Shown here: in pieces, positions 34,652 to 64,000 of the stretch | How positions within the stretch are numbered: position 1 is the stretch's first letter | Layout: each line of letters starts with the position of its first letter | NCBI RefSeq assembly: GCF_965363235.1 | Contig: NC_134848.1 | Coordinates: 61,900,181-61,964,180 of the forward strand | Source: Mytilus galloprovincialis | Lineage: Eukaryota; Mollusca; Bivalvia; Mytilida; Mytilidae | Direction: 5' to 3' | Length of the DNA stretch: 64,000 nucleotides | Position numbers and translations under genes: made by a program | Notes under the pieces: generated by a model | Databases searched by the model: none | Told to the model about the DNA's origin: nothing | Seen by the model: the letters and a program-made list of their open reading frames with translations, nothing else

Positions 34652-36040
34652 CTGAAAAATGATAAAATAGAAAATAACAATAAAAAAAAAAAAAAAATTA
34701 TTCCAAAAAATAGAAATTTAAAATCTGATGAGATACAATTTAAAAAAGAATGAATGTCCGGTAACGCTGGCTTAAACGATGAAAATGTCCTCAAAAAAAT
34801 TTACAGCGAGCCAAACTTTCCACTTGTAATACAGTAATTTCAAGTTGTCAACAGAACTAATATTCCGGCTGTCGTGTGAAGTTTTATACAGTTTTGATAA
34901 TAATGCTCCAAAATGATCTATGTACATTTTATTTGGTTTTCAATATTCAAGTTTGGTTCTAAACTATGGGCATATTCGGTTACCCGCCATCTTGTCAGAT
35001 CTATCTAGGTGTGCCGAACGGACCTGCATTTTTTGGACCTGTACATCGAACAAAAAAAGCGCATGCCGTACACACTTAAGGTGGTACCCAACACTTTCAT
35101 TTAAATTAATTTGGCTATTTACTTTGACCCTTTGACAAAAATATAAGTATTTCAAAAAATTTGAACCAAGCATTTTATCAGAAAAATTACACTGTTTATA
35201 TAGCAGTTTGACAAACACTAATTTTGATCATTGAGAAGCTTAATATTCCCTTAACAACACAACGTCATGAAAACATTTAGGTGATTTTACAGAGTTATCT
35301 CCCTGTAGTGTTAGGTACCATCTTAAATACCTAACAAACGTTTGAATGGGATATGTAATGATATTAAAACTTTTCCCATATAAAACATACATGATGTTTA
35401 CAGTGTACGTTGCGCACCTAAGGGTTGACTGGAATTCGAAAATATCATCACCTGGATTTCTCAGTAAAGTAGTAAAAACAGTAAAACTCATTGGCAAGCT
35501 AATAAGGCACCAAGTTGGCTTTGTGTGTAAAAAACGCAGTAAAGCCGGATGATTCGTGTAGAAAGAATAATCGACTCTCTGTACATTACAGAACTCTCGT
35601 AACAACAATTTGATTGGTCCTTATATCTCTGCTCCGTTCTAACATGACGTGTTCTATTTTCAGTGGCAGTTCAAATTCCTCAGAGGTCCATCATCGCGAT
35701 TAACCTACTGACTCTACAGAACCTAATATAATTAAATGTTATGTTAATTCGCGTTTATGTCCTAACCCCCCCCCCCCCCCGTTTTTGGTATGTTTTCTAT
35801 TAAAAATAACGTTAAACACACAATATTTTTTTGTAGTACCTCACACTGCAGCTTCCCCATCTTTTTGCTCAGTTTATTCAGCATCTCTGAGACAGTATTA
35901 CGTTGATTGCGTACATTGACAATGTTAGAATCATTCTGTCCTATGTCGTCTCTATTTCTCAAGGTTGCATAGTATAAACCAAGTATTATGTTCACAGAGA
36001 GTAATAATAACAGTATATTATTGGCATTGTTGTTCATCAT
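34064..36040 (-). CDS. Membrane-anchored SAM-methyltransferase-like protein A (2 exons)
   Basis: Exon 1 36,040-35,840 (67 codons) and exon 2 34,651-34,064 (195 codons plus stop) join in phase 0 with GAG|GTACTA and TTTTTCAG|AGA, giving 262 residues. Exon 1 encodes a hydrophobic anchor (ILLLLLSVNIILGLYY) and a helical heptad-like NTVSEMLNKLSKKMGKLQCE, suggesting a type II membrane protein. Exon 2 carries the class I methyltransferase pattern: motif I VASFGDGTGQY (residues ~107-117), an acidic stretch YDSYDGGPFSEEES, WDWVMSIEVAEHIP as motif II-like, and GVILSWAVPGQGG. This fold binds S-adenosylmethionine; the substrate is unknown. It has a same-structure paralogue at 44,694-47,414. A MITE (35,079-35,323) lies in the intron. 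Acceptor-like TTTTTTAG precedes exon 1, so a 5' UTR exon is likely. Confidence 0.8.
35079..35323. mobile_element. MITE with TIR AGGTGGTACC (copy 2)
   Basis: 245 bp, ends AGGTGGTACCCAACACT and AGTGTTAGGTACCATCT, in the intron of methyltransferase A. TA abuts both ends (TTA| and |TAA). Shorter than copy 1 at 3,530 and in the opposite orientation. Confidence 0.8.
35330..35760. other. Intron of methyltransferase A; unassigned
   Basis: Overlapping ORFs on both strands (35,346-35,552 plus; 35,240-35,608 minus) have no recognised motif, and the minus one runs into the MITE. A run of C lies at 35,766-35,780. Confidence 0.4.
35840..36040 (-). CDS. Methyltransferase A, anchor exon
   Basis: 201 nt: MMNNNANN, then the hydrophobic segment, then …NQRNTVSEMLNKLSKKMGKL and QCE. 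The last ~25 codons match the paralogue exon (QRNTVSGMLNRLSQKMGKMQ), while the first part has diverged. The donor GAG|GTAC is conserved with the paralogue's GAG|GTAA. Confidence 0.8.
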
Positions 36041-36665: not shown

Positions 36666-37389
36666 TTATTCTACATAAATTGAAAATAGATGAATAATGG
36701 CAAGAAAGCAACTGTTGGTTCTCGCTCTTGACTACAACTTAAAGGTTGGGGACGTGATAAATATAAAATTGGCGGGTTTCGATATGTTTAAATATACCGA
36801 ACTTTAGTGGATGTTGTTTCACTGGCAATCATACCATATCTCCTTATTTGTAATGCAACGTAAATTAGAATGATTGATATTTTCTAAAATAAAATCAAAA
36901 GACACACAATTATATAGTTACTTACCTTTTCCTAATTTTGTTTACGTAATGCCATCTTATTACTGAGTAGAATCTATTAATTGTGTTCTTAGTTGTGTCT
37001 TTATTTTGTATTTACCTCAGACAAACAGTGTCATTGAACAACGAAAGAAAATATACCATATACTGTGTTTTAAATGGTGTCCTGTTAAAATCGATGTTTA
37101 AATCTACAATATAACTCAAACAGTTTTTATAAATAGAAGTGCTAGACACGCAACTGTCATAACTGTAATGGTGATTTAAAATATTCTATAAAACGCCAAT
37201 CGGTCCCAAATCTGATATCTGGTTCAAACTATACTGAACAAGTAAAAAAAAGCACCAAATATCGGCATTTATATTAAATGTTGTTTATTTTTTTAATTAT
37301 TCAAACATAATATTAATAATTATACCACTAGTGGTTCATCTTAAACTCATAAATCGATAAAGATCTGACAATGCCATGGGGAAAAAAAC

Positions 37390-40717: not shown

Positions 40718-41816
40718 AAAACAAGAGTGCACACGCTGAAATGTCTCGCCTTCTATACTAATCATTGATATTATGTTGATAGTCCTAAGTATAAAGCTAA
40801 GCTTTATTACAACTGTCACATAAACTTAACATTAACCAAGATAACTAAACAAAGACCAATAAATCTTGAAAATGAGGTCAAGGTCAGATGAACCATACCA
40901 GGCAGACAAGTACAGCTAACAATGCTTCTATACAACATATATAGTTGACCCATTACTGATAGTTTAAGAAAAATAGACCAAAACACAAAAACTTAACACT
41001 GTGCAATGAACCGTGAAAATGAGGTCACGGTCAAATTAAACCTGCGCGACTGACATAAAGATCATAAAATATTTCCATACACCAAATATAGTTGACCTAT
41101 GGCATATAGTATTAGATAAAAAGACCAAAACTCAAAACTGAACTTTGACCACTGAACCATGAAAATGAGGTCAAGGTCACATGACATCTGCCCGCTAGAC
41201 ATGTATAGGTTACAATCATTCAATACAACAAATATAGTAGACCAATTGCATATAATATGAGAAAAACAGATCAAAACACAAAAATTTAACTATAACCACT
41301 GAACCATGAAAATGAGGTCAAGGTCAGATGATACCTGCCAGTTGGACATGTACACCTTACAGTCCTTCCATAGACTGAATATGCTAGCCCTATTGCTTAT
41401 AGTATCCGAGATATGGACTTGACCACCAAAACTTAACCTTGTTCACTGATCCATGAAATGAGGTCGAGGTCAAGTGAAAACTGTCTGACAGACATGAGGA
41501 CCTTGCAAGGTACGCACTTATCAAATATAGTTATCCTATTACTTATAATAAGAGAGAATTCAACATTACAAAAAATTTGAACTTTTTTTTCAAGTAGTCA
41601 CTGAACCATGAAAATGAGGTCAAGGTGATTGACGGAAACTTTGTAACATGAGCATCTATATACAAAGTATGAAGCATCCAGGTCTTCCACCTTCTAAAAT
41701 ATAAAGCTTTTAAGAAGTGAGCTAACACCGCCGCCGTAGCCGCCGTAGCCGCCGCCGCCACCGGATCACTATCCCTATGTCGAGCTTTCTGCAACAAAAG
41801 TTGCAGGCTCGACAAA
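40718..41816 (+). mobile_element. Tandem-unit element with terminal hairpin (Helentron/pearl-like), copy 1
   Basis: A leader GAGTGCACACGCTGAAATGT, then six units of ~146-147 bp (AAATGAGGTCAAGGTCAGATG… at 40,871, 41,018, 41,164, 41,311, 41,457, 41,613), then a GCCGCCGTAGCC microsatellite, CCGGATCACTATCCCTATG and a 3' hairpin TGTCGAGCTTTCTGCAAC / GTTGCAGGCTCGACA. Leader, tandem units, microsatellite and 3' hairpin is the layout of pearl/Helentron-associated non-autonomous elements known from bivalves. No coding capacity. Confidence 0.75.
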
Positions 41817-44693: not shown

Positions 44694-45281
44694 CTATACA
44701 TACAAATTTTGATTATCAAATGGTAATATTCTAGTATAAACATAGAGGTTACGTTTCAGATGCGGAAAGGTGCAAGACTGTTGTAAAAGTTTTGACGAAT
44801 TTTCATCAAGCTGAAATCCGTTTTTATTCATAACTTGCGTGACGTATTGAACCGATTTATTGTTAACATGCATGAATCCACCTTGTCCAGGAACGGCCCA
44901 ACTTAAAATAATTCCATCTTTAGCATGTCTGAATATATTATCTAAAAATATTCTCTCGTATTGCTTTGGTATATGCTCGGCTACTTCAATTGACATAACC
45001 CAATCATACACGTGTAGTCCATATTGAGGAATAGTAAGGTCCATATATTTAACATTCCCCTTACTCTCTTCTTCAGAAAAAGGTCCACCATCATATGAAT
45101 CATATGACTTTATCTTGCCTAATTTTAAAAGCTCGTTTTTATACTGTCCAGTTCCGTCTCCGAAGCTTGCAACAGTTTTTCCTTGTAAAAAGTTGGACAA
45201 TGCAGGAAGAAGTGTTTTATCTGCTCCCAAATGCACACCACGTTTACAATAACCCCCTCTTTCAGCTGTTCCTTTGCTTCT
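44694..45281 (-). CDS. Methyltransferase B, catalytic exon
   Basis: 588 nt, starting RSKGTAERGGYCKRGVHLGA and ending NQNLYV-stop. Intact frame and the same intron position as A. The glycine-rich SAM loop FGDGTGQ and the AEHIPKQYERIF helix are unchanged from A. Confidence 0.85.
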   Translation of the reverse strand, partial: RSKGTAERGGYCKRGVHLGADKTLLPALSNFLQGKTVASFGDGTGQYKNELLKLGKIKSYDSYDGGPFSEEESKGNVKYMDLTIPQYGLHVYDWVMSIEVAEHIPKQYERIFLDNIFRHAKDGIILSWAVPGQGGFMHVNNKSVQYVTQVMNKNGFQLDENSSKLLQQSCTFPHLKRNLYVYTRILPFDNQNLYV

Positions 45282-47414
45282 CTGAAATGGAATGAACACA
45301 ATTAATATGCTCGACATATTTAATTTCTCACATGTCTATGGTTAAATATAAAAGAGAAGATGTGGTATGCTTGCCAATGATACAACTCTCCACAAGAGAC
45401 CAAAATGACACAGAAATTAACAACTATATGTCATCGTACGACCTTTAACAATGAAAAAATCCCATACCGCATAGTTAGCTATAAAAGGCCCCGAAATGAC
45501 AATGTAAAACAATTCAAACGAGAAAACTAACGGACTCCCTTTTTTGGTTCTTTGATTGTTTGCATAGACGTATGTATATACCTTACTTCATTTGTATGCC
45601 CCACCTACGATAGTAGAGGGGCATTATGTTTTCTGGTCTGTGCCTCCGTTCGTCCGTCCGTCCGTCTGTGCCTCCGTTCGTCCGTCCGCTTCAGGTTAAA
45701 GTTTTTGGTCAAGGTAGTTTTTGAAGAAGTTGAAGTCCAATCAACTTGAAACTTATTACACTTGTTCCCCATGATATGATCTTTCTAATTTTAATGCCAA
45801 ATTATAGTTTTGACCCCCAATTTCATGGTCCACTGAACATAGAAAATGATAGTGCGAAGTTCAGGTTAAAGTTTTTGGTCAAGGTAGGTTTTGATGAAGT
45901 TAAAGTTACATCAACTTGAAACTTAGTACACATGTTTCCTATGTTATGATCTTTTTAAATTAGATGCCAAATTAAAATTTTGACCACAATTTCACGGTCC
46001 ACTGAACATAGAAAATGATAGTGCGAGTGGGGCATTTGTGTACTATGGACACTTTCTTGTTATTCATAGTTTATGGTTTGTTTACAGCATGTTCACATGT
46101 TTGTGCTGGTTCTGTTTCAGTGCAGTATACGTTTTCTGAGTCAACCTTGTTAATAGAGTAAACTAGATTAAGGACAGGGAATCAGTTTACAGGGAAAGCC
46201 AAAAAGACACAAATAAATTGTTGAAAAATTGAGTATCCCTTACATGTTTGTAATGCATCATTATATGGTCTACCGAGCAGGTTGGTTAATGGTTGGTTAG
46301 TCGGTTGATTGATTTATTGCTTGCCTTATGTCAGTCGCGAATAATTCATGCATGTTCAAGACGAACAATCGAAATTAAATACATTAAAAAAAGAATCAGT
46401 TTCTGAAACAATCAATCTAAAATATGAAAATACGAAAACGTGGTATGATTGCCTATGAGACAACTCTATGCAAGAGACAAAGTGACAGAAATTAATAAAC
46501 TGTTGTCACAGAGATATGTCTCACCTTTTTGCAATTTTGATAATGCAAACCATTTAAAGTCAATAGACCATGACTGAGGGGACAGAGCCAAATAATCTCC
46601 ATGGCAATGAGATGTGGAAATGCTTTTACATCTGTATACCAATTATCATTGACAAACCACAAATGGATCCCCATAAACTGACCTAATCACAAACTAATAC
46701 ATGTAAAGTAAGCAAACCATTTAAAGTCAATAGACCATAACTGACGGGGCGGAGTCAAAAAATCTCCTTGACAATGAGATGTGGCAATGCTAATACATCT
46801 GCATACTAATTATCATTTACCTACCACCAGTGGATCCCCATAAACTGACCTAATCACAAACTAATACATGTAAAGTAAGCAAACCATTTAAAGTCAATAG
46901 ACCATGACTGAGGGGGCGGAGCCAAATAATCTCCATGGCAATGCGGTCTGGCAATGGTAATACATCTGCATACTAATTATCATTGATCTACCACTAGTGA
47001 TTCCCCATAAAACTGACCTAATCACAAACTAATACATTGTTGGCGCCATGGCCGTCGTCGCCGCCGACGCCGGAAACAGCATGCCTATGTCTCGCTTTTT
47101 GACTCCATTAAGGCGAGAAAAAACTATATAGGTCACCGTACGGCCTTCAACAATGAATCGTTTTGATTCTCTATATTACTCTGCTTTATGTTTACCTCAC
47201 ACTGCATTTTCCCCATCTTTTGACTCAGTCTATTCAGCATCCCTGATACAGTATTTCGTTGCTTGCATATACTATCTAGACGTAAATCACACTGAACACC
47301 CTGAACCGGAAATGGATTGTCAACTTTTTTTGATGACGTCATATAATATAAACTGACTAGCGTGTAACCAGAAAACAATAATAACAACAAATCTTTTACA
47401 TTTAGGTCCGGCAT
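44694..47414 (-). CDS. Membrane-anchored SAM-methyltransferase-like protein B (2 exons)
   Basis: Paralogue of the gene at 34,064-36,040. Exon 1 47,414-47,196 (73 codons) and exon 2 45,281-44,694 (195 codons plus stop) join in phase 0 through GAG|GTAAAC and CATTTCAG|AGA, giving 268 residues. N-terminus MPDLNVKDLLLLLFSGYTLV is a short head plus hydrophobic anchor; QRNTVSGMLNRLSQKMGKMQ follows. The catalytic part repeats VASFGDGTGQY, YDSYDGGPFSEEESKG, YDWVMSIEVAEHIP and ILSWAVPGQGG; where A has PVWDWV, B has HVYDWV. The binding motifs are all kept, so both copies look functional. The 1.9-kb intron is packed with retroelement tails and two tandem-unit elements. An acceptor-like TTTTTTTTCCAG lies just upstream of the ATG, pointing to a 5' UTR exon. 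Substrate unknown. Confidence 0.8.
45351..45533 (-). repeat. Retroelement 3'-tail fragment
   Basis: GAAGATGTGGTATGCTTGCC … AACTCTCCACAAGAGACCAA … ATAAAAGGCCCCGAAATGAC. Same as 49,146-49,480 (minus) and 57,925-58,240 (plus). It sits in the intron of methyltransferase B. Confidence 0.75.
45592..46065 (-). mobile_element. Tandem-unit element with terminal hairpin, second type
   Basis: Left end is a hairpin ATGCCCC…GGGGCAT, followed by a (TCCG)n-rich microsatellite (CCTCCGTTCGTCCGTCCG), then two ~171-bp units (CAGGTTAAAGTTTTTGGTCA at 45,690 and 45,861), ending GTGGGGCATTTGTGTACTAT. Read on the minus strand, the order is tandem units, microsatellite, terminal hairpin, as in the 146-bp-unit family. 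Confidence 0.7.
46300..46375 (-). repeat. End fragment of the CAATC-tailed SINE-like repeat
   Basis: GATTGATTTATTGCTTGCC…GTCAGTCGCGAATAATTC…ATGCATGTTCAAGACGAAC is a diverged reverse complement of the element end at about 43,080-43,158. Confidence 0.55.
46432..47155 (-). repeat. Retroelement tail interrupted by a tandem-unit element
   Basis: 46,432-46,501 (ACGTGGTATGATTGCCTATG … GACAGAAATTAATAAACT) and 47,126-47,155 (ATAGGTCACCGTACGGCCTT) are adjoining parts of the tail family seen whole at 45,351 and 49,146. The 46,502-47,125 element lies between them. Confidence 0.7.
46502..47125 (+). mobile_element. Tandem-unit element with terminal hairpin, third type
   Basis: Leader CAGAGATATGTCTCACCTTT, three ~167-bp units (AAACCATTTAAAGTCAATAG at 46,547, 46,714, 46,881), a (GCCGTCGTC) microsatellite, CATGCCTATGTCTCGC and a hairpin CTCGCTTTTT / AAGGCGAG. 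The unit sequence is unrelated to the other two types, but the end layout (CCTATGTC + hairpin) is shared. The insertion into a known repeat fixes its limits. Confidence 0.75.
47196..47414 (-). CDS. Methyltransferase B, anchor exon
   Basis: 219 nt. A hydrophobic segment (LLLLLFSGYTLVSLYYM) about ten residues from the Met predicts a signal anchor with a lumenal catalytic domain. Two Cys (QCDLRLDSICKQ) precede the conserved heptad segment; paralogue A lacks these. Confidence 0.8.
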
Positions 47415-47758: not shown

Positions 47759-48014
47759 CACAATGCAGTGGCGTATCCCAAAAAGAGAAGAAGAGAGGGT
47801 CTGGGGTTTTTGACCTTTTGTTTTACAATGCGTTTCAAGGGAAACATACAATGTTAGTTCGTTCTTCTACAATAATAATACATTATGAAACACTTGGATA
47901 GTCATTATTTTTTATATACTCATAATCTGAAGACGAACGAATTGATGGGTCAAACAGTTTCATTATAATACGTTTCGCAGAAGAACAATGGATTGATAAT
48001 GGGCGTCAAGTTGG

Positions 48015-48268
48015 TTACCTATTCCCTATTCCCTATTCGTTACCTATTCCCTATTCCCTATTCGTTGCCTATTCGTTACCTATTCCCTATTCCCTATTCG
48101 TTACCTATTCGTTACCTATTCCCTATTCCCTATTCGTTGCCTATTCGTTACCTATTCCCTATTCCCTATTCGTTGCCTATTCGTTACCTATTCCCTATTC
48201 CCTATTCGTTGCCTATTCGTTACCTATTCCCTATTCCCTATTCGTTACCTATTCGTTACTTATTTGAT
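48015..48268 (+). repeat. 36-bp minisatellite, left arm
   Basis: About six units of CGTTGCCTATTCGTTACC plus TATTCCCTATTCCCTATT. 36 is a multiple of 3 and the unit has no stop, which yields a false repetitive ORF. Mirror copy at 59,113-59,370. Confidence 0.95.
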
Positions 48269-48294
48269 TTTTAATATCCTTCCCCCTTTTTAAT

Positions 48295-48900
48295 TATGGC
48301 ATGGAATAGTTTAATATGGTTGCCGTTACCATGGAAACGGCACAATTGTGAAAAAAATCAGTTTTTGGTTTTTGGTAAACTGTTTGGATATGCTTCAACT
48401 CAGAATCATCATATTTTAAAACAATGTAGGTGCCCACTATATACAGGTGTTGGATGATTTTGGCGATCATTGGAACTACTATGTTGCCATGGAAACTACA
48501 CCAAAATTTTCAAAATTCTAAAAATGCTCAAAACTTCATGAAACTTCACAGTAATGATGAGCAACATTGGAGTTGGAATTTCCAAAATAGGTCTTGTTAC
48601 CATGGAAACAATGCAAAAAGGTCAAAAATTTCAAAAATAAGAATTTTCAGCAAACTGGATGAAACTTTACAGGAATGGTAACTGGCATAGGCAGAGTTGG
48701 ATTTTGAAGTTAGAATTTCAAAATGGCTGCCGTAACCATGGAAACAGCAAAAATATCAAAAATTCAAAATGTTCAAACTTAATGAAACTTTGCAAAAATG
48801 TTACTAGACATCTGTAGATTCTCTCTTTGACTTTGGAATTGTCAAAATGGCTGCCGCTCACCTGGTAATAGGGGGAAGGGGTGCCTTCCGTTATTGCTAG
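48295..48900. repeat. Diverged ~120-bp repeats with CCATGGAAAC (left arm)
   Basis: Four to five units like GGTTGCCGTTACCATGGAAA … TCAAAAATTTCAAAA … CTTCATGAAACTTTACAG. The mirror set is at 58,490-59,075. The two 83-residue ORFs here and at 58,702 are the same sequence on the two arms, not genes. Confidence 0.8.
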
Positions 48901-49145
48901 CAATTACAAATCTAGTTGTTAATAGTCTTACATATGGTAATAGTTCTGAATTGGTTGAGGTAAAATGATCTTTTTATGACCTATTTATATGTGTTTGTGC
49001 TCAACCGATCCTTTTACTTCATGTTCGATACGCATTTGTTCCTTACTTGTTTTTTATACGTTCTACCTTTTAACTGCTTTATGTCCGTATGTTTGAAGAT
49101 GGATCTTGGTTCGACGGGATGAAATCACCGTGTTAGCGCTTGCGT

Positions 49146-49480
49146 AAAAACGAAGATGTGGTATGATTGCCAATGAGACAACACTCCACAATAGACCAAA
49201 ATGACACAGAAATTATCAACTATAGTTCACTGTACGGCCTTCAACAATGAGCATAGCCCAAACCGTGTAGTCACCTATAAAAGGCCCAGACATGACAACC
49301 TCATACAATTCAAACAACAAAACTGACGGCCGTATTTCATATACAAAAAAATAATTGGAAATATGTAACACAAAAACAAACGATAACTACTTAATTTCAG
49401 GCTCTTGTCTAGGGACAGGCACATACTTACATAATGTGGTAGAGTTAAACATGTAAGCAGGGTGTACATCGTTTCGGAGC
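49146..49480 (-). repeat. Retroelement 3' tail captured in left arm
   Basis: GAAGATGTGGTATGATTGCC … GTAGTCACCTATAAAAGGCC … CTTGTCTAGGGACAGGCACA … GTTAAACATGTAAGCAGGG. The inverted copy in the right arm (57,925-58,240) shows it was part of the element when the arms were last made alike. Confidence 0.8.
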
Positions 49481-49499
49481 ATGCTATTACCTTGTTTAA

Positions 49500-51357
49500 T
49501 TCGTTCCATCACTCGCTTATAATTCGCTTATAATACGTGTATCTTACGTTGCACCTTTTAAAACATGATTTTCAATTGTTTTGTTGTCTCTGGTGGAAGA
49601 TTTGGGCACTTGGAGGTGATATAACTCTATAAGTGCATTTGTATCCGTTCCAGCGGTCGGATAATACCCTGTTAAATATTCGTTACTAGTTCGCTTTTAA
49701 AAAGTTTGTTGTACGTTGCACCTTTTAGAAAAGGATTTCCAATTGTGTTCATATCTCTGGTGGTAATAATGTGTTCTTATAGATGAAATACCCCTATAAG
49801 CGCATATGTACTCGTTCCAGCGCTCGATAAATACCCTGTTACCTATGCGTTACCTATTCACTTATAATACGTTTGTTGTACGTTGCACCTTTTAGAAAAG
49901 GATTTCCAATTGTGTTCATATCTCTGGTGGTAACAATGTGTTCTTAGAGATGAAATGACCCCATTAGAGCGCATGTACCCGTTCCAGCGCTCGGTAAATA
50001 ACCTGTTACCTATTCGTTACTTATTCGCTTTTAATGTGCGGGGTGTACGGTGCACCTTGAAATAAATCGTTTTTTAATTGTGTTCAGGTCTCTGGTGGTA
50101 AGAATGTGTTCTTAGAGATGAAATTACCCTATTAGCGCGCATGTACCCGTTCCAGCGCTCGGTTAATACCCTGTTACCTATTCGTTACCTATTCGTTACC
50201 TATTCGCTTATAATACATTTTTTTATACGTTGCACCTGTTAGAAAAGGATTTTCAATTATGTCCAGGTCTCAGGTGGTAACAATGTGTTCTTAGAGATGA
50301 AATGACCCTATAAGAGCGCATGTACCCGTTCCAGCGCTCGGTAAATAACCTGTTACCTATTCGTTACTTATTCGCTTTTAATGCGCGGGGTATACGGTGC
50401 ACCTTGAAATAAATCGTTTTTTAATTGTGTTCAGGTCTCTGGTGGTAAGAATGTGTTCTTAGAGATGAAATTACCCTATTAACGCGCATGTACCCGTTCC
50501 AGCGCTCGGTTAATACCCTGTTACCTATTCGTTACCTATTCGCTTATAATACATTTTTTTTTACGTTGCACCTGTTAGAAAAGGATTTTCAATTATGTCC
50601 AGGTCTCAGGTGGTAACAATGTGTTCTTAGAGATGAAATGACCCCATTAGAGTGCATGTACCCGTTCCAGCGCTCGGTAAATAACCTGTTACCTATTCGT
50701 TACCTATTCGCTTTTAATGCGCGGGGTATACGGTGCACCTTGAAATAAATCGTTTTTTAATTGTGTTCAGGTCTGTGGTGGTAAGAATGTGTTCTTAGAG
50801 ATGAAATGACCCTATTAGCGCGCATGAACCCGTTCCAGCGCTCGGTTAATACCCTGTTACCTATTCGTTACCTATTCGTTACCTATTCGCTTATAATACA
50901 TTTTTTTATACGTTGCACCTGTTAGAAAAGGATTTTCAATTATGTCCATGTCTCTGGTGGTAAGAATGTGTTCTTAGAGATGAAATGACCCTATTAGCGC
51001 GCATGTACCCGTTCCAGCGATCGGTTAATACCCTGTTACCTATTCGTTACCTATTCGTTACCTATTCACTTATAGTACGTTTGTTGTACGTTGCACCTTT
51101 TAGAAAAGGATTTTCAATTAAATTCATATCTCTGGTGGTAACAATGTGTTCTTAGAGATGAAATGACCCTATTAGAGCGCATGTACCCGTTCCAGCGCTC
51201 GGTAAATAACCTGTTACCTATTCGTTACTTATTCGCTTTTAATGCGCGGGGTATACGGTGCACCTTGAAATAAATCGTTTTTTAATTGTGTTCAGGTCTC
51301 TGGTGGTAAGAATGTGTTCTTAGAGATGAAATTACCCTATTAGAGCGCATGAACCCG
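49500..51357 (+). repeat. ~167-bp satellite, left block (about 10-11 units)
   Basis: The anchor CCAGCG recurs at 49,651, 49,818, 49,985, 50,153 and 50,332 (steps 167, 167, 168, 179). Each unit holds CGTTCCAGCGCTCGG, TACCCTGTTACCTATTCGTT, ACGTTGCACC and GTGTTCTTAGAGATGAAAT. Length steps of 11 bp come from one more or one fewer GTTACCTATTC. Confidence 0.95.
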
Positions 51358-54300
51358 TATACCCCGCACATTAAAAGCGAATAAGTAACGAATAGGTAAC
51401 CTCGTGCATTAAAAACAAATAAGGAACGAATAAGAAGCAGGGTATTAACTGAGCGCTGGAACGAGTACATACGCGTTAATAGGGGTATTTCATCTAAAAG
51501 AACACATTATTACCACCAGAGATATGAACTGAATTAAAAATCCTTTTCTAAAAGATGCAACGTACAACAAACGTAATACAAGTGAATAGGTAACGAATAG
51601 GTAACAGGGTATTTATCGAGCGCTGGAACGGGTACATGCACGCTAATAGGGTCATTTCATCTCTAAGAACACATTGTTACCACCAGAGACACGGACACAA
51701 TTGAAAATCCTTTTCTGAAAGGTGCAACGTACAACAAACGTATTATAAGTGAATAGGTAACGAATAGGTAACAGGGTATTTACCGAGCGCTGGAACGGGT
51801 ACATACGCGCTAATAGGGTAATTTCATCTTTAAGAACACATTGTTACCACAAGAGACATGGAGACAATTAAAAATCCTTTTCTAAAAGGTGCAACATACA
51901 ACAAACGTATTATAAGTGAATAGGTAACGAATAGGTAACGAATAGGTAACAGGGTATTAAACGAGCGCTGGAACGGGTTCATGCGCTCTAATAGGGTCAT
52001 TTCATCTCTAAGAACACATTGTTAACACCAGAGACATGAACACAATTAAAAAACGATTTATTTCAAGGTGCAACGTATACCTCGTGCATTAAAAGCAAAT
52101 AAGGAACGAATAAGAAGCAGGGTATTAACTGAGCGCTGGAACGAGTACATACGCGCTAATAGCGGTATTTCATCTAAAAGAACACATTATTATCACCAGA
52201 GATATGAACTGAATTAAAAATCCTTTTCTAAAAGATGCAACGTACAACAAACGTAATATAAGTGAATAGGTAACGAATAGGTAACAGGGTATTTATCGAG
52301 CGCTGGAACGGTAACATGCACGCTAATAGGGTCATTTCATCTCTAAGAACACATTGTTACCACCAGAGACACGGACACAATTGAAAATCCTTTTCTAAAA
52401 GGTGCAACGTACAACAAACGTATTATAAGTGAATAGGTAACGAATAGGTAACAGGGTATTTACCGAGCGCTGGAACGGGTACATGCGCGCTAATAGGGTA
52501 ATTTCATCTCTAAGAACACATTGTTACCACAAGGGACATGGAGACAATTAAAAATCCTTTTCTTAAAGGTGCAACATACAACAAACGTATTATAAGTGAA
52601 TAGGTAACGAATAGGTAACGAATAGGTAACAGGGTATTTACCGACCGCTGGAACGGGTACATGCGCGCTAATAGGGTAATTTCATCTCTAAGAACACATT
52701 GTTACCACAAGAGACACGGACACCATTGAAAATCCTTTTCTGAAAGGTGCAACGTTCAACAAACGTTATATGAGTGAATAGGTAACGAATAGGTAACAGG
52801 GTATTTATCGAGCGCTGGAACGGGTACATGCGCGCTTATAGGGTCATTTCATCTCTAAGAACACATTGTTACCACCAGAGACACGGACACCATTGAAAAT
52901 CCTTTTCTGCAAGGTGCAACGTACAACAAACGTATTATAAGTGAATAGGTAACGAATAGGTAACGAATAGGTAACAGGGTATTTACCGAGCGCTGGAACG
53001 GGTACATGCGCGCTAATAGGGTAATTTCATCTCTAAGAACACATTGTTACCACAAAAGACATGGAGACAATTAAAAATCCTTTTCTAAAAGGTGCAACAT
53101 ACAACAAACGTATTATAAGTGAATAGGTAACGAATAGGTAACAGGGTATTAAGCGAGCGCTGGAATGGGTTCATGCGCTCTAATAGGGTCATTTCATCTC
53201 TAAGAACACATTGTTACCACCAGAGACACGGACACAATTGAAAATCCTTTTCTGAAAGGTGCAACGTACAACAAACGTATTATAAGTGAATAGGTAACGA
53301 ATAGGTAACAGGGTATTTACCGAGTGCTGGAACGGGTACATGCGCGCTAATAGGGTAATTTCATCTCTAAGAACACATTGTTACCACAAGAGACATGGAG
53401 ACAATTGAAAATTCTTTTCTAAAAGGTGCAACGTACAACAAACGTATTATAAGTGAATAGGTAACGAAAAGGTAACAGGGTATTTACCGAGCGCTGGAAC
53501 GGGTACATGCGCGCTAATAGGGTAATTTCATCTCTAAGAACACATTGTTACCACAAGAGACATGGAGACAATTAAAAATCCTTTTCTAAAAGGTGCAACA
53601 TACAACAAACGTATTATAGCTGAATAGGTAACGAATAGGTAACGAATATGTAACAGGGTATTTACCGAGCGCTGGAACGGGTACATGCGCGCTAATAGGG
53701 TAATTTCATCTCTAAGAACACATTGTTACCACCAGAGACACGGACACCATTGAAAATCCTTTCTGAAAGGTGCAACGTACAACAAACGTATTATAAGTGA
53801 ATAGGTAACGAATAGGTAACAGGGTATTTACCGAGCGCTGGAACGGGTACATGCGCGCTAATAGGGTAATTTCATCTCTAAGAACACATTGTTACCACAA
53901 GAGACATGGAAACAATTAAAAATCCTTTTCTAAAAGGTGCAACATACAACAAACGTATTATAGCTGAATAGGTAACGAATAGGTAACAGGGTATTAAACT
54001 AGCGCTGGAACGGGTTCATGCGCTCTAATAGGGTCATTTCATCTCTAAGAACACATTGTTACCACCAGAGACATGAACACAATTAAAAAACGATTTATTT
54101 CAAGGTGCAACGTATACCTCGTGCATTAAAAGCAAATAAGGAACGAATAAGAAGCAGGGTATTAACTGAGCGCTGGAACGAGTACATACGCGCTAATAGC
54201 GGTATTTCATCTAAAAGAACTATTTATTATCACCAGAGATATGAACTGAATTAAAAATCCTTTTCTAAAAGATGCAACGTACAACAAACGTAATATAAGT

Positions 54301-57300
54301 GAATAGGTAACGAATAGGTAACAGGGTATTTATCGAGCGCTGGAACGGGTACATGCACGCTAATAGGGTCATTTCATCTCTAAGAACACATTGTTACCAC
54401 CAGAGACACGGACACAATTGAAAATCCTTTTCTAAAAGGTGCAACGTACAACAAACGTATTATAAGTGAATAGGTAACGAATAGGTAACAGGGTATTTAC
54501 CGAGCGCTGGAACGGGTACATGCGCGCTAATAGGGTAATTTCATCTCTAAGAACACATTGTTACCACAAGAGACATGGAGACAATTAAAAATCCTTTTCT
54601 AAAAGGTGCAACATACAACAAACGTATTATAAGTGAATAGGTAACGAATAGGTAACGAATAGGTAACAGGGTATTTACCGAGCGCTGGAACGGGTACATG
54701 CGCGCTAATAGGGTAATTTCATCTCTAAGAACACATTGTTACCACAAGAGACACGGACACCATTGAAAATCCTTTTCTGAAAGGTGCAACGTACAACAAG
54801 CGTTATATAAGTGAATAGGTAACGAATAGGTAACAGGGTATTTATCGTGCGCTGGAACGGGTACATGCGCGCTTATAGGGTCATTTCATCTCTAAGAACA
54901 CATTGTTACCACCAGAGACACGGACACCATTGAAAATCCTTTTCTGAAAGGTGCAACGTACAACAAACGTATTATAAGTGAATAGGTAACGAATAGGTAA
55001 CAGGGTATTTACCAAGCGCTGGAACGGGTACATGCGCGCTAATAGAGTAATTTCATCTCTAAGAACACATTGTTACCACAAAAGACATGGAGACAATTAA
55101 AAATCCTTTTCTAAAAGGTGCAACATACAACAAACGTATTATAAGTGAATAGGTAACGAATAGGTAACAGGGTATTAAGCGAGCGCTGGAACGGGTTCAT
55201 GCGCTCTAATAGGGTCATTTCATCTCTAAGAACACATTGTTACCACCAGAGACACGGACACAATTGAAAATCCTTTTCTGAAAGGTGCAACGTACAACAA
55301 ACGTATTATAAGTGAATAGGTAACGAATAGGTAACAGGGTATTTACCGAGTGCTGGAACGGGTACATGCGCGCTAATAGGGTAATTTCATCTCTAAGAAC
55401 ACATTGTTACCACAAGAGACATGGAGACAATTGAAAATCCTTTTCTAAAAGGTGCAACGTACAACAAACGTATTATAAGTGAATAGGTAACGAATAGGTA
55501 ACAGGGTATTTACCGAGCGCTGGAACGGGTACATGCGCGCTAATAGGGTAATTTCATCTCTAAGAACACATTGTTACCACAGGAGACATGGAGACAATTA
55601 AAAATCCTTTTCTAAAAGGTGCAACATACAACAAACGTATTATAAGTGAATAGGTAACGAATAGGTAACGAATATGTAACAGGGTATTTACCGAGCGCTG
55701 GAACGGGTACATGCGCGCTAATAGGGTAATTTCATCTCTAAGAACACATTGTTACCACCAGAGACACGGACACCATTGAAAATCCTTTTCTGAAAGGTGC
55801 AACGTACAACAAACGTTATATGAGTGAATAGGTAACGAATAGGTAACAGGGTATTTATCGAGCGCTGGAACGGGTACATGCGCGCTTATAGGGTCATTTC
55901 ATCTCTAAGAACACATTGTTACCACCAGAGACACGGACACCATTGAAAATCCTTTTCTGAAAGGTGCAACGTACAACAAACGTATAATAAGTGAATAGGT
56001 AACGAATAGGTAACGAATAGGTAACAGGGTATTTACCGAGCGCTGGAACGGGTACATGCGCGCTAATAGGGTAATTTCATCTCTAAGAACACATTGTTAC
56101 CACAAAAGACATGGAGACAATTAAAAATCCTTTTCTAAAAGGTGCAACATACAACAAACGTATTATAAGTGAATAGGTAACGAATAGGTAACAGGGTATT
56201 AAGCGAGCACTGGAACGGGTTCATGCGCTCTAATAGGGTCATTTCATCTCTAAGAACACATTGTTACCACCAGAGACATGAACACAATTAAAAAAACGAT
56301 TTATTTCAAGGTGCAACGTATACCTCGTGCATTAAAAGCAAATAAGGAACGAATAAGTAGCAGGGTATTAACTGAGCGCTGGAACGAGTACATACGCGCT
56401 AATAGGGGTATTTCATCTAAAAGAACACATTATTACCACCAGAGATATGAACTGAATTAAAAATCCTTTTCTAAAAGTTGCAACGTACAACAAACGTATT
56501 ATAAGTGAATAGGTAACGCATAGGTAACAGGGTATTTATCGAGCGCTGGAACGGGTACATACGCGCAAATAGGGTCATTTCATCTCTAAGAACACATTGT
56601 TACCACCAGAGACACGGACACAATTGAAAATCCTTTTCTAAAAGGTGCAACGTACAACAAACGTATTATAAGTGAATAGGTAACGAATAGGTAACAGGGT
56701 ATTAAGCGAGCGCTGGAACGGGTACATGCGTGCTAATAGAGTCATTTCATCTCTAAGAACACATTGTTACCACCAGAGACATGGGCACAATTGAAAAACG
56801 ATTTATTTCAAGGTGCAGCGTATAACCCGCGCATTAAAAGCGAATAGGGAACGAATAAGTAACAGGGTATTATCCGAGCGCTGGAACGAGTACATACGCG
56901 CTAATAGGGGTATTTCATCTAAAAGAACACATTATTACCACCAGAGATATGAACTGAATTAAAAATCCTTTTCTAAAAGTTGCAACGTACAACAAACGTA
57001 TTATAAGTGAATAGGTAACGCATAGGTAACAGGGTATTTATCGAGCGCTGGAACGGGTACATACGCGCAAATAGGGTCATTTCATCTCTAAGAACACATT
57101 GTTACCACCAGAGACACGGACACAATTGAAAATCCTTTTCTAAAAGGTGCAACGTACAACAAACGTATTATAAGTGAATAGGTAACGAATAGGTAACAGG
57201 GTATTAAGCGAGCGCTGGAACGGGTACATGCGTGCTAATAGAGTCATTTCATCTCTAAGAACACATTGTTACCACCAGAGACATGGGCACAATTGAAAAA

Positions 57301-57882
57301 CGATTTATTTCAAGGTGCAGCGTATAACCCGCGCATTAAAAGCGAATAGGGAACGAATAAGTAACAGGGTATTATCCGAGCGCTGGAACGAGTACATACG
57401 CGCTAATAGGGGTATTTCATCTAAAAGAACACATTATTACCACCAGAGATATGAACTTAATTAAAAATCCTTTTCTAAAAGGTGCAACGTACAACAAACG
57501 TATTATAAGTGAATAGGTAACGAATAGGTAACGAATAGGTAACAGGGTATTAACCGAGCGCTGGAACGGGTACATGCGTGCTAATAGGGTCATTTCATCT
57601 CTAAGAACACATTTTACCACCAGAGACATAAACACAATTAAAAAACGATTTATTTCAATGTGCAACGTATACCCCGCGCATTAAAAGCGAATCAGGAACG
57701 AATAAGTAACAGGGTATTATCCGAGCGCTGGAACGGGTACAAATGCGCTTATAGGGTTATATCACCTTTAAGAACCAAAATCTACCACCAGAGACAACAA
57801 AACAATTAAAAATCATATTTTAAAAGATGCAACGTATGATACACGTATTACAAGCGAATTATAAGCGAGTTATGGAACGAAT
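51358..57882 (-). repeat. ~167-bp satellite, right block (about 37 units), with higher-order repeats
   Basis: Same unit in the opposite orientation (GAGCGCTGGAACGGGTACAT, TAATTTCATCTCTAAGAACA, GGTGCAACGTACAACAAACG, GTGAATAGGTAACGAATAGG). A variant unit beginning CTCGTGCATTAAAA marks higher-order blocks at 51,401, 52,081, 54,118 and 56,324 (steps 680, 2,037, 2,206; the last two differ by one unit). A three-unit, 501-bp duplication lies at 56,478/56,979. Confidence 0.95.
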
Positions 57883-57924
57883 TCAACAAGGTAATAGCAT
57901 GCTCCGAAACGATGTAGACCCTGC

Positions 57925-58240
57925 TTACATGTTTAACCCCACCACATTATGTTAGTATGTGCCTGTCCCTAGACAAGAGCCTGAAATTAAGTAGTTATCG
58001 TTTGTTTTTGTGTTACATATTTCCGTTTATTTTTTGGTATATGAAATACGGCCGTCAGTTTTGTTGTTTGAATTGTGTGAGGTTGTCATGTCTGGGCCTT
58101 TTATAGGTGACTACACGGTTTAGGCTATGCTCATTGTGGAAGGCCGTACAGTGACCTATAGTTGATAATTTCTGTGTCATGTTGGTCTATTGTGGAGTGT
58201 TGTCTCATTGGCAATCATACCACATCTTCTTTTTTTTGCA
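57925..58240 (+). repeat. Retroelement 3' tail captured in right arm
   Basis: Reverse complement of 49,146-49,480, ending GCAATCATACCACATCTTC. Confidence 0.8.
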
Positions 58241-58489
58241 AGCGCTAACACGGTGATTTCATCCCGTCGAACCAAGATCCATCTTCAAACATACGGACAT
58301 AAAGCAGTTAAAAGGTAGAACGTATAAAAAAACAAATAAGGAACAAATGCGTATCGAACATGAAGTAAAAGGATCGGTTGAGCACAAACACATATAAATA
58401 GGTCATAAGAAATCCATTTTACCTCAACAAATTTAGAACTATTACCAGATATAAGTGTATTAACAACTAGATTGGTAATTGCTAGCAAT

Positions 58490-59075
58490 AACGGATGGCA
58501 CCCTTCCCCCTATTGCCAGGTGAGCGGCAGCCATTTTGACAATTCCAAAGTCAAAGAGAGCATCTACAGATGTCTAGTAACATTTTTGTAAAGTTTCATT
58601 AAGTTTGAACATTTTAAAAATTTTGATATTTTTGCTGTTTCCATGGTTAGGGCGGCCATTTTGAAAATTCCAACTTCAAAATCCAACTCTGCCTATGCCA
58701 GTTACCATTCCTGTAAAGTTTCATCCAGTTTGCTGAAAATTCTTATTTTTGAAATTTTTGACCTTTTTGCATTGTTTCCATGGTAACAAGACCTATTTTG
58801 GAAATTCCAACTCCAATGTTGCTCATCATTACTGTGAAGTTTCATGAAGTTTTGAGCATTTTTAGAATTTTGAAAATTTTGGTGTAGTTTCCATGGCAAC
58901 ATAGTAGTTCCAATGATCGCCAAAATCATCCAACACCTGTATATAGTGAGCACCTACATTGTTTTAAAATATGATGATTCTGAGTTGAAGCATATCCAAA
59001 CAGTTTACCAGAAACCAAAAACTGATTTTTTTCACAATTGTGCCGTTTCCATGGTAACGGCAGCCATATTAAACT
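58490..59075. repeat. Diverged ~120-bp repeats with GTTTCCATGG (right arm)
   Basis: Mirror of 48,295-48,900, with a few point differences (for example GCAGCCATATT here against GCAACCATATT expected from the left arm). Confidence 0.8.
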
Positions 59076-59112
59076 ATTCCATGCCATAATTAAAAAGGGG
59101 GAAGGATATTAA

Positions 59113-59370
59113 AAATCAAATAAGTAACGAATAGGTAACGAATAGGGAATAGGGAATAGGTAACGAATAGGCAACGAATAGGGAATAGGGAATAGGTAAC
59201 GAATAGGCAACGAATAGGGAATAGGGAATAGGTAACGAATAGGCAACGAATAGGGAATAGGGAATAGGTAACGAATAGGCAACGAATAGGGAATAGGGAA
59301 TAGGTAACGAATAGGCAACGAATAGGGAATAGGGAATAGGTAACGAATAGGGAATAGGGAATAGGTAACC
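59113..59370 (-). repeat. 36-bp minisatellite, right arm
   Basis: Units of GAATAGGTAACGAATAGGCA plus ACGAATAGGGAATAGG, mirror of 48,015-48,268 with the same or nearly the same copy number. Confidence 0.95.
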
Positions 59371-59389
59371 AACTTGACGCCCATGGATT

Positions 59390-60340
59390 ATGATAAAATT
59401 AACGTATGTAACGTTTCGAAGATGAATAACGTACGGAGTGGACAAAATAATGAAATATTTCAACAAAAAAGCAAAGAAAAAAGTATGAAAAGATGGCCGC
59501 TTTGTCAATGAACTATTTCAGAGGGAAAGAAATGAAATTTTATACAATCACGAAATCAATGGATGGACCCTAATGTTAAAGTGCGTAATCTTACGACGAA
59601 GATCAAACTTGAAGGCTTGTGATATAGAATTAAGGTCGTGTATGGTCGTTCCCAACTATTACAAAACTATCTATAGAAATAGGAGGCACACAACATCTTT
59701 GGAGCATATTATAGTTCTACAAAGCTTGAACGATCTTAAAATATAAGTTCACGTCGTTGTGTCATTGTTTGTTTACGTTGGTTTCAAGCGCCTGACGTGA
59801 TTCAAACGCCAGATTAATCACCTATGGAACAACAACGCCACCTGATGCGTAAAATTTGTAAGGTGATTCCTATTGAATTTTGTTGATCATAATGTAAGAT
59901 ATAGTAAAAGTTCTATAAATCTCTAAAAGAAAATCTAAGATCTGATATTTGTAGAAAATATTTTATTGTATGAAAATAAACAAAGGGATATAAAAAAAAT
60001 TCCATTTCCCGCAAATAATTTAAAATTTGATATTAAAAATTAAAAATAGATATCGATATATATAGATAAGAGGTATGTATAGAGAATACAATCGGCAATG
60101 ACACTTAGTTAGATGTTTTATTCTCAAATAATTACATTAGATGTATGTTTCACTATAATGCGTTATATAATTCTGGTTGGCTAACTACACATCACGTGTT
60201 ATTCCTTAAGCAAGTGCATTACTCGATAAAACTTTTCATTCATGATAACACACGAGGTCCCAAAATAAAGTGCACAAGTAAATTAAATAAAAAATTGATA
60301 AAATTCGTGTTTTCATGATCTTTATAGCTAAAAATATATT
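59390..60340. other. No gene recognised
   Basis: Flank of the foldback element, AT-rich. Nothing supported beyond short chance ORFs. Confidence 0.5.
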
Positions 60341-60344
60341 TAAA

Positions 60345-60503
60345 AGTATTGAATGCTTCTTTTTATAACTTCATATATAGGGTTGTTGTAAAAACGTTGA
60401 CCGTGCGCACATTTTTAGACTGAAGCGCTTCCGCGCTTCATACAAAATGTACTTCGGTCAACGATTTTACACCCCAATGAAGTAACAAAAAGAAGCATTC
60501 AAT
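60345..60503. mobile_element. Small foldback element with ~50-bp arms
   Basis: ATTGAATGCTTCTTTTTATA … AAAACGTTGACCG on the left and CGGTCAACGATTTTACACCC … AAAAGAAGCATTCAAT on the right; between them is a second hairpin GAAGCGCTTCCGCGCTTC. Weaker pairing continues outward for another ~25 bp. Confidence 0.8.
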
Positions 60504-61142
60504 TCTTAAATGTATATATGAAAGGATTTTATTCTAATTTTTTGTGACATGACCCAATCTTTAACATTTGAATAGCTGTTTAAATAATATATTAAATATA
60601 CATCCCTTATTTAGAAGAAATTATGAATTAAATATGTTCTATAGAGATTTTTTTCTATAAAAGCTGACCGTGCTCATTAGAGGCAAAAGTTAGGTTGTTA
60701 AACGTTACGAATGCGAATTAAACTAATTCGAATTAGTTAATGCGAATCGAATTAACTCAGCATTAGAATGATTTAAGTGTCTTACCTTTATTTTGTCTTG
60801 TTAAAACTGTCGAAGATTTCTCAATACATGTTCAATGTGAAATAGGTATTAGTTGGTTAAAAGAAAAATGCAAAAGGCTACAGAAGAAAATCGTCTTTCC
60901 TACGTAAAATCTGCCTGATTAAAATTCTATTGAATTTCGTTCCGATAAATGTACATGTAATACACATGAAAATCGGTATCAAACGTGTGTATTTATGTTT
61001 AAATGTCCAATGCGGATATATAAGACAGACCAATCAATATTGTAAAAAACTTTGTAAAGGGCACAACGAATCAATATATGAATAAGCCATGGATTATCTA
61101 AAAGAATAATATTTTATACAACTTTAAATAAAAGTACCAAAA

Positions 61143-62190
61143 AGAGTGCACACACTGAAATGTCTTGCCTTCTTTACTAATCATGGATATTATGTTGACA
61201 ATCCAAAATATAAATCTTTATTAAAACTGTCACATAAACCTAACATTAACCAATGAAACATGAAAATGATGCCAAGGTCAGATAAACCATGCCCGGCAGA
61301 CATGTACAACTAACAATTCTTCCATACAACAAATATAGTTGACCTATTGTTTATAGTTTAAGAAAAACAGGCCAAAACACAAAAACTTAACACTGAGCAA
61401 TAAACCGTAAAAATGAGGTTAAGGTCAAACAAAACCTGCGTGACTGACATATAGATCATAAAATATTTCCATACACCAAATATAGTTGACCTATTGCATA
61501 TAGTATTTGAAAAAAAAGACCAAAACTAAAAAAACTTAACTTTGACCACTAAACCATGAACATGAGGTCAAGGTCAGATGACACCTAGCGGATACACATG
61601 TACACCTAACACTCATTGCATACACCAATTATAGTAGACCTATGTCATACAGTATAAGAAAAACAGACCAAAACGCAAAAACTTAAATATAACCATTGAA
61701 CCATGAAAATAAGGTCAAGGTCAGTCAACACCTGACAGTTGGACATGTACACCTTATAGCCCATCCATACACCGAATAAACTTGACCTATTGTTTATATC
61801 TGAGATATGGATTTGACCACCAAAACTTTACCTTGTTCACTGATCCATGAAATGAGGTTGAGGTCAAGTGAAAACTGTCTGACAGTCATGAGGACCTTGC
61901 AAGGTACGCACATACCAAATATAGTTATCCTATTACTTATAATAAGAGAGAATTTAACATTACAAACAATCTTTTTTCAAGTAGTCACTGAACCATGAAA
62001 ATGAGGTCAAGGACATTGGACATGTGACTGACGGAAATTTGTACCATGAGGCATCTATAAACAAAGTATGAAGCATCAAGGTCTTCCACCTTCTAAAATA
62101 TAAAGCTTTTCAGAAGTTATCTAACGCCGCCGCCGGATCACTATCCCTATGTCGAGCTTTCTGCAACAAAAGTCGCAGGCTCGACAAAAA
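61143..62190 (+). mobile_element. Tandem-unit element with terminal hairpin (Helentron/pearl-like), copy 2
   Basis: Same orientation and order as 40,718-41,816: GAGTGCACACACTGAAATGT, six ~146-bp units with AAATGAGGTCAAGG, a short GCCGCCGCC, GGATCACTATCCCTATGTCG and the hairpin CGAGCTTTCTGCAACAAAAG / TCGCAGGCTCG. The microsatellite is shorter than in copy 1. Confidence 0.75.
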
Positions 62191-62334
62191 AGTACTACCC
62201 TTATCGCATTATTGTAGTTCAGAACCACAGTTTTATCTCTTTGACCTATGATACCTTATAGTGATATTAAGATGATAACACAATATTGACTGCTGTACCC
62301 CTATTTTTGACATTTTTTACTCTTTGAGTATGTT

Positions 62335-62645
62335 TGTTTTGTTCGTGCATCGTTGACAATGTAATGGAATTTGATATGACTGTCATACAAGTGAGAGGTT
62401 TAGCTAGCTATAAAACCAGGTTCAATCCACCATTTTCTACATTAGAGAATGCCTGTGCCAAGTCAGGAATATGACAGTTGTTATCCATTCGTTTGATGTG
62501 TTTGGACTTTTGATTTTGCCTTTTGATTTTGGATTTTCCTTTTTGAATTTTCCTCGGAGTTCACTATTTTTGTGTTTTTGGGATACGATTGCTTTCAAGC
62601 AATCTGTAGAATTATACCGGTGTCTCGGAGCAATTTCCCTCACGT
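62335..62645 (+). repeat. Retroelement 3'-tail fragment
   Basis: GACTGTCATACAAGTGAGAGG, GGTTCAATCCACCATTTTCT, AGTCAGGAATATGACAGTTG, TTTTCCTCGGAGTTCACTAT. The reverse complement of this order is at 37,590-37,800. The ORFs on both strands here are not genes. Confidence 0.75.
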
Positions 62646-62885
62646 CAATCGTTTTATTCTAAACACTAAGGAACATCTCAGATTCTTATGATTGTCTTGC
62701 TTTAAAAGGTAAAAACAAACAAAGGGATTAAACTTAATCAACTTCCCTATAATGTTCTTTTCATAATCTTTATGTTTGATAACATATGCAACTATTCCAG
62801 TCATAATTAGGTTCGATAACTCTGTATGTGACTGGTTTAATTAGGATTATGTAAAATGTACTGGTTACCCGTGTAATGATTTAAA

Positions 62886-62916
<31 letters not shown>

Positions 62917-64000
62917 TATTTCATCTTTGTTACCATCCATCCGTGGTTTCCTTTTGTTAATATAAAATATTATCATTGAAATGATTTCATAAACAATCGT
63001 ATAATACTAATATATATATTAAGTCTTGTCAAAACTTACATCGTGATTAGGCCACGTTGCCATGTTTGTTTTCTTTGATCACGTTGATGACTTAATTAAT
63101 ATCTCCACAATCTAGCTTTATCCTTAATTATCATACGAGTTACAATAAACGTGTCATATTTAATTGCAATACAAACAGTTAAATCTAATTGAAATATTTG
63201 CATGTGCAAAATAAGTGTCGAACATCGTCTACTTTTGAAAATTATTTGGTCGCCATTTTGTTTTATGTAACTTCGAAATTTTATCAAAACAAATAACATG
63301 TATCCACTTTAACAGAGGGAAACAATGTTTAATTTTATGCTGCATTAAGGTAAGACAATTATTGAAAAGACATGCATCTAACAATTTTTCGATTTTCATC
63401 GTTTAAATCTTCAAAAATATATATTCCCATGTCGCCCCACGCTATCAATGTACATGTAAACTGCATGGTTGGTGCATGCAAATCTTTTTTTGTAGTGTGA
63501 GATACTGTTTCTAATAAATATATTGAAGAAGATGTGAAAACAGAAATTTCTTAAGTACAAAAAGACACACTTTGATAAATATTTGAAATATTACTTTTTG
63601 ATTTATAACTACATGAATACCGGCATGTCGTGTCGTTGTGAACCTCCAACAGTGACCGCCATTTTGAAAATATTGCTGAAGACTGCAAAAATAAGAACTT
63701 TTCAACCAAATTTCGAAGCAAAAAGTTTAATACCTGAACTGATATGGTTTGCGATTTCATTTAAATGACGATCTTTTTAGGGGTTGGGAGGATATAAGTT
63801 ACAATAAATTAGTTGAGAAAATTGATTTTACAAAAAGGTCCCATTACAATTTTATCGAGAATTAACGAAGATGTCAACGGAGGCTGTGTGGCTATGTCAC
63901 CTCAATTTTCAAACTTATTTCGAAGCACGAAATCATATTTCTGAACTGAAACTTAAAACATATTTAATTGTAAAAAATTATTAACTGTAAAAGGCGGGGT
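62646..64000. other. No gene recognised; one TA microsatellite
   Basis: A (TA)12-type run at about 62,886-62,911. The rest is AT-rich with short overlapping ORFs on both strands near 63,500-63,770 that show no domain. CCGCCATTTTG phrases recur at 63,250 and 63,657. Confidence 0.5.

Follow-up and report, generated by a model that had tools for sequence, protein, structure and literature searches.

The origin and spread of satellites is an open question, and a locus in the mussel Mytilus galloprovincialis holds candidate stages of the process together: an end module, an end array, a degenerate outer monomer, a short array and a long array. The locus lies in a 64,000-nucleotide stretch of contig NC_134848.1 (assembly GCF_965363235.1, positions 61,900,181 to 61,964,180, forward strand), hereafter the window, and takes the form of a single imperfect palindrome of 11,386 bp at 47999-59384, which we call the element. 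Is it a mobile unit that carries its own satellite, or a palindrome that arose where it now lies? An earlier note on this DNA had described it as foldback-like. As far as anatomy goes this stands, with good support for its sharply bounded, identical ends, for long inverted arms that hold nested tandem repeats and for the absence of a coding centre, but the target-site duplication amounts to an imperfect 12/14-bp repeat. We consider it probable that the element is a foldback-type DNA transposon that is non-autonomous and depends on a transposase supplied in trans from elsewhere; its mobility we infer. On our best reading it would act as a satellite nursery, with a satellite growing inside a foldback transposon.

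Ends and arms of the palindrome

Inverted identity spans 47999-59384, and the GGGCGTC end itself lies at 48001 on the left and 59382 on the right (the element would span 48001-59382 without the shared AT). The earlier note had the right extent, with numbering off by one (47998-59383), and its position sum of about 107,380 agrees with the 107,383 found at both ends. Beyond 47999 and 59384 the inverted similarity ends abruptly, and at E 1e-3 the 2-kb flanks do not match one another. The terminus of each arm is ATGGGCGTCAAGTTGG; the left terminus, ATGGGCGTCAAGTTGGTTACC (47999-48019, + strand), recurs unchanged, in inverted form, at the right end. The ends had been described as perfect inverted copies over 19 bases, and perfect they are, but over 104 bases, with the first mismatch at 48103. 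Within the window the end 19-mer occurs twice, once per strand, even with up to 3 mismatches allowed (mean of 0.00 in 100 shuffles).

The arms are 99% complementary at 47999-48723/58660-59384 and 93% at 49050-49724/57657-58331. Global alignment of the 1,523-base arms, that is 47999-49521 and its inverted copy with the same parts on the minus strand (57862-59384), gave 97.2% identity over 1,520 aligned columns. The differences comprise 6 gap columns and 42 substitutions (21 transitions and 21 transversions), in line with the earlier description of an outer 1.5 kb that is inverted with few indels and carries point differences. The minus-strand BLAST score of the arms was 2,527 bits, whereas 29 randomly chosen pairs of equally long segments, drawn from roughly the first 46 kb of the window, never exceeded 88.7. 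The arms are a mosaic of similar outer and more diverged inner parts: 5 of 714 outer positions differ (0.7%), compared with 37 of 806 inner ones (4.6%; Fisher p 2e-6), and leaving out the 36-bp array gives 4 of 448 against the same 37 of 806 (p 2e-4). Both p-values are optimistic because the split point, 48712, was picked after the profile had been inspected.

Read inwards, each arm consists of the terminus, a 36-bp array, diverged repeats, a degenerate monomer with a dispersed repeat, and the satellite. The subterminal array holds seven 36-bp repeats in each arm; Tandem Repeats Finder (TRF) placed 7.0 copies at 48018-48264 (+ strand, 96% matches, with modules from 48014) and 7.0 copies at 59119-59365 (- strand, 97% matches). 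By eye, the unit can be split into 11+7+7+11 nt as GTTACCTATTC, CCTATTC, CCTATTC and GTTGCCTATTC. The arm middle, at 48265-48871 on the left (+), is about 0.6 kb of diverged repeats around GTTRCCATGGAAAC-like palindromes whose cores lie 113-158 bp apart, at 48325, 48483, 48596 and 48732, and are mirrored in the right arm. Each arm thus has three GTTRCCATGGAAAC palindromes and one variant (GTAACC, at 48732), and the CCATGGAAAC core is found four times per arm and nowhere else in the window. We take the GTTRCCATGGAAAC palindromes to resemble RFX X-boxes.

Further inwards comes the outermost satellite monomer, degenerate and represented here by its 5' part (49020-49143, +), which was identified by a weak profile match and pairwise alignment; the profile matches, both weak, are at 49020-49139 (E 0.0011) and, mirrored, at 58358-58242 (E 0.0059). 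This monomer is interrupted at the same place in both arms by a copy of a dispersed repeat (49144-49460, +; inner border approximate, set by eye). The repeat at 49145-49329 is 83% identical to 45349-45533, and shorter matches lie at 6446-6583, 46428-46494, 36807-36849 and 47127-47156. Its presence in the same degenerate monomer on both sides indicates that the arms derive from one repeat-bearing arm or have been homogenised since.

As had been claimed, the element is non-coding in the sense that it holds no recognisable coding sequence. Stop-to-stop open reading frames (ORFs) of at least 60 aa that overlap it number 36, the longest (133 aa) lying in an end array and flank, and a Pfam scan of 10 of the 36 found no match at E 0.1. 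Rfam (gathering scores) and ARAGORN returned nothing in the window.

Satellite arrays and their shared module

The satellite monomers are mostly 167/168 bp long, or 178/179 bp where they carry an extra 11-nt module, and the outermost one cut is 144 bp. TRF finds 10.8 copies in the left array (49522-51358, +; about 1.8 kb), from which 10 monomers were cut and aligned, and 38.0 copies in the right array (51401-57893, -; about 6.4 kb), from which 37 were cut and which also shows in profile matches and exact repeats. At E <=0.1 all profile matches left of 51357 are on the + strand and all right of it on the - strand, and together they miss 2 bases of the 8,338 in 49522-57859; three weaker matches (E 1.2-5.8), including one + match at 52737, were treated as noise. 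The single change of satellite orientation that the earlier note had placed at about 51,358 is therefore borne out, and it can be resolved to 51358-51400, where sequence comparison shows 43 nt of a left-type monomer reversed (- strand). This piece has 1 mismatch to 50005-50047 and 4 to its best match in the right array, and CCGT, read by eye, is shared at the joint. The switch does lie far from the geometric centre, because the right array is longer than the left. The element has no unique centre or separate middle; its arms meet at the switch and measure 3.4 kb (left) and 8.0 kb (right) with their satellite, so that tandem repeats sit inside the inverted arms in different numbers (about 11 versus about 38).

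Satellite and ends are tied together by the module GTTRCCTATTC. It occurs 109 times in the element, always pointing inwards, and 0 times elsewhere in the window: the + strand has 30 copies, none of which starts beyond 51213, and the - strand 79, none of which lies left of 51390. One to three modules are present in 39 of the 47 monomers, the exceptions being L01 and L02 on the left and R01, R03, R06, R09, R22 and R34 on the right. From these counts and positions, the end arrays and most satellite linkers share one common unit, running in the same direction within each arm.

The monomers also record some of the history of the arrays. In ten mirrored windows the satellites of the two arms are 81-92% identical. 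The nearest neighbour is a right-array monomer for all 37 right monomers and a left-array monomer for 7 of the 10 left ones; for each of L04-L09 the two closest monomers belong to the left array, at distances of 0.018-0.042, against 0.060-0.084 to the best right monomer. The right array contains exact multi-monomer duplications of up to 582 bp. Monomer kinship and these duplications together show that both arrays amplified further after parting, from a common stock. The outer arms meanwhile stayed alike, or were made alike.

Within the right array, 56374-57457 contains an exact 582-bp repeat at a lag of 502, in which R03-R05 equal R06-R08, a very recent three-monomer duplication. Both satellite arrays (49522-51358 and 51401-57860) have a CpG observed/expected ratio of 1.27 and show no CpG depletion; the ratio is 0.76-0.79 in the arms and, outside the element, 0.82 in 1-47000 and 0.89 in 60000-64000.

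Insertion or palindrome formed in place

If the element is a transposon, its ends with their module arrays would be the recognition sites, and by analogy with Galileo the repeated modules may offer many transposase binding sites. The satellite could have arisen by duplication of arm sequence that included GTTRCCTATTC, and could have grown by unequal exchange within the arms, far more in the right one. Occasional annealing or exchange between the arms would leave the outer 0.7 kb near-identical while the inner parts and arrays drift, and the flipped 43-nt piece, together with the 4 nt (CCGT) shared at the joint, suggests a template switch by fold-back within a satellite monomer. We advance only tentatively, and with some doubt, the larger proposal that a mobile foldback can be a self-contained satellite factory, in which the module gives rise to the end array and then to the 167-bp satellite linker, the arrays account for most of the unit that moves, and each jump seeds several-kb, two-orientation arrays across a bivalve genome.

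An insertion might have left its trace in the flanks. Alignment finds an imperfect direct repeat beside the two ends, a candidate target-site duplication. Its left copy, ATGGATTGATAA (47988-47999, +), stands one base (T, 48000) before GGGCGTC, its last base overlapping the first base of inverted identity; the right copy, ATGGATTATGATAA (59383-59396, +), overlaps the inverted identity by its first two bases. The copies match at 12 of 12 letters with one 2-nt gap (12/14 bp). Their score was reached by 8 of 20,000 random 16-nt pairs (by a fraction of 0.000575 of 40,000 in a separate run), by 49 of 40,000 AT-matched pairs, and, out of 20,000 random pairs each, by 167 at 12 nt, 36 at 20 nt and 225 at 30 nt. 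Chance odds accordingly run from 0.0004 to 0.2 depending on the length compared, and these lengths were picked after the match was seen. For the longest ungapped word common to the flanks, chance is 0.008-0.021. The repeat is possibly a decayed target-site duplication, longer than in known foldbacks; it leans towards insertion over a palindrome made in place, but weakly, and is suggestive only.

Several observations weigh against a transposon. A single copy is known, and no transposase was seen among the element's 36 ORFs, 10 of which were scanned against Pfam. The flank repeat has its 2-nt gap and leaves an extra base before GGGCGTC on the left side, and when 10 nt are compared the flanks are unremarkable (4,234 of 20,000 random pairs). 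When the ends were allowed to move by as many as 4 bases, the longest exact duplication was 4 nt (ATGG), and this one overlaps the left end. The duplications reported for Galileo, Tetris and Tm1 measure 7-10 bp, shorter than the 12/14 repeat (PMC4079207, PMC3169594, PMC3688188). The flank 12-mer also occurs alone at 26578; that site was considered as an empty site and rejected, since its similarity to the left flank does not extend beyond the 12-mer and that to the right flank is loose and gapped. A second, unrelated likeness of the flanks, ACGTTTCG-, scores higher than the candidate duplication: 47970-47985 (ACGTTTCGCAGAAGAA) and 59411-59426 (ACGTTTCGAAGATGAA) match directly at 14 of 16 positions, about 30 bases from each end. 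Its local score was reached in 803 of 20,000 random 70-nt pairs, and the 16-mer match in 2 of 400; no target duplication explains it. Given this second likeness and the copy at 26578, flank likeness is cheap evidence. Nor are the arrays two clean families, since 3 of the 10 left monomers (L01-L03) have their closest relative in the right array, and left monomers differ more among themselves (mean distance 0.165) than from right ones (0.147), the former mean being raised at least partly by the degenerate L01. Finally, the matching position of the dispersed repeat in the two arms would also follow from a plain inverted duplication.

That last point leads to the main rival, a non-mobile satellite palindrome. 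Here an error of replication, by fold-back, would have given a satellite array and its border an inverted duplicate at the same site, after which the two sides evolved further. We judge this unlikely, though a serious contender: besides the single copy seen, the dispersed repeat common to both arms and the want of an exact target-site duplication, with flank likeness being weak evidence, it draws on the microhomology and the flipped piece at the switch. Taken alone, it leaves unexplained why end arrays of the satellite's own module end at the same base on both sides, and why flanking sequence is directly repeated beside both ends; the abrupt stop of inverted identity at 47999 and 59384 also argues against it.

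An artefact of assembly or library, in which a fold-back chimeric read was joined into the contig, is very improbable. Palindromes of about 11 kb are a known shape of assembly artefact. In this one, however, 42 substitutions stand against 6 gap columns and cluster inward, the arrays of about 1.8 and 6.4 kb have different monomer types, and the flanks do not match at E 1e-3, in agreement with the earlier note, which set a simple assembly fold-back aside.

In pearl elements the central repeats all point one way and lie between flanks that differ from each other. A rolling-circle element of the pearl/Helentron (HINE) type carrying a satellite is the least credible explanation of all: monomer length and bivalve setting do resemble the pearl elements MgE and CvE (PMC7492417), but the arms here are long inverted copies and the array is itself inverted, rather than a one-orientation satellite lacking long inverted arms.

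Searches for relatives added little. The left arm gave no blastn match to phage and plasmid sequences. A collection of viral contigs was uninformative because an exact 23-base word of the dispersed repeat also scored 0 there, like the end 19-mer and the satellite linker and junction patterns. The single match to the end 19-mer in a Bacteroidales metagenome-assembled genome was rejected, its flanking sequence lacking the array and the match being as chance would give. Words from the element in open-access papers led to a poplar chloroplast genome and pig diarrhoea viruses and were taken as unrelated; words from the dispersed repeat gave 0 there.

Relation to known elements and neighbouring features

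Drosophila FB and sea urchin TU elements have foldback arms of nested short tandem repeats. The element resembles them in its nested tandem-repeat arms, a likeness of anatomy and not of sequence; satellite-length monomers are not known to us in FB or TU.

The closest anatomy on our best reading would be that of Tetris and Galileo of Drosophila. In Drosophila virilis, Tetris has terminal inverted repeats (TIRs) that reach 1,735 bp and contain tandem repeats of 220 bp; these share a 37-bp stretch with the flanking domain and grow into satellites (PMC4079207). The element and Tetris both have long TIRs in which a flanking domain is followed inwards by tandem repeats of roughly 200 bp, a conserved ORF is described for neither, flanking domain and repeat have a common stretch, and the repeat expands into satellite arrays within the unit itself (PMC4079207). 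Unlike Tetris, it has an additional 36-bp subterminal array and lacks a middle domain, its arrays reach 11 and 38 copies, and its flank repeat is an imperfect 12/14 bp compared with 8-10 bp (PMC4079207); the two are likened by anatomy, not by sequence.

The tandem repeats in the TIRs of Galileo (P superfamily) contain transposase-binding sites, and their number varies between the two TIRs of one copy (PMC3573991, PMC3688188). Long, internally repetitive TIRs, unequal repeat numbers and copies made up of two TIRs only are thus shared with the element, whereas Galileo TIRs of about 0.3-1.2 kb and target duplications of 7 bp (PMC3573991, PMC3688188) differ from its arms of 3.4 and 8.0 kb, for which no P transposase is known. 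Tm1, a Mutator/Foldback element of root-knot nematodes, also has composite TIRs with a short subterminal tandem repeat in variable copy number (PMC3169594). It differs in its mostly 9-bp target duplications, 13-15 bp repeats and other end motifs, and the description consulted mentions no satellite-length arm repeats (PMC3169594).

Among bivalve elements, pearl and Cg_HINE are likewise mobile and carry satellite-like repeats of about 160 bp, but they are of rolling-circle type (PMC7492417) and are not known to have long inverted arms. The route described for satellite-carrying elements in oysters is Helentron-like (PMC7492417). Searches of an open-access library found no foldback transposon described in bivalves and no paper on a fold-back transposable element in Mytilus. 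Foldbacks that grow satellites in their arms are already known from Tetris in fruit flies; the present element is large and has long, unequal satellite arms. If our interpretation is true, it would give bivalves a counterpart to Tetris, separate from the Helentron route of oysters.

Other features of the window lie outside the element. Two similar ORFs of about 215 aa (34064-34717 and 44694-45335, - strand) are paralogues by eye and possibly methyltransferase-like, also by eye; neither has a Pfam match, and a PDB search with the ORF at 44694-45335 gave no useful match. QRICH1 and Phage_integrase domains occur in neighbouring ORFs at 28785-29924 (-), which resemble a Crypton-like tyrosine recombinase. 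A 147-bp tandem repeat has related sequence on both sides of the element, at 40867-41496 and 61231-61792, in the same orientation. Inverted-repeat pairs at 22091-22646 (114 nt, 99%) and 33262-33522 (98 nt, 98%) have the shape of miniature inverted-repeat elements.

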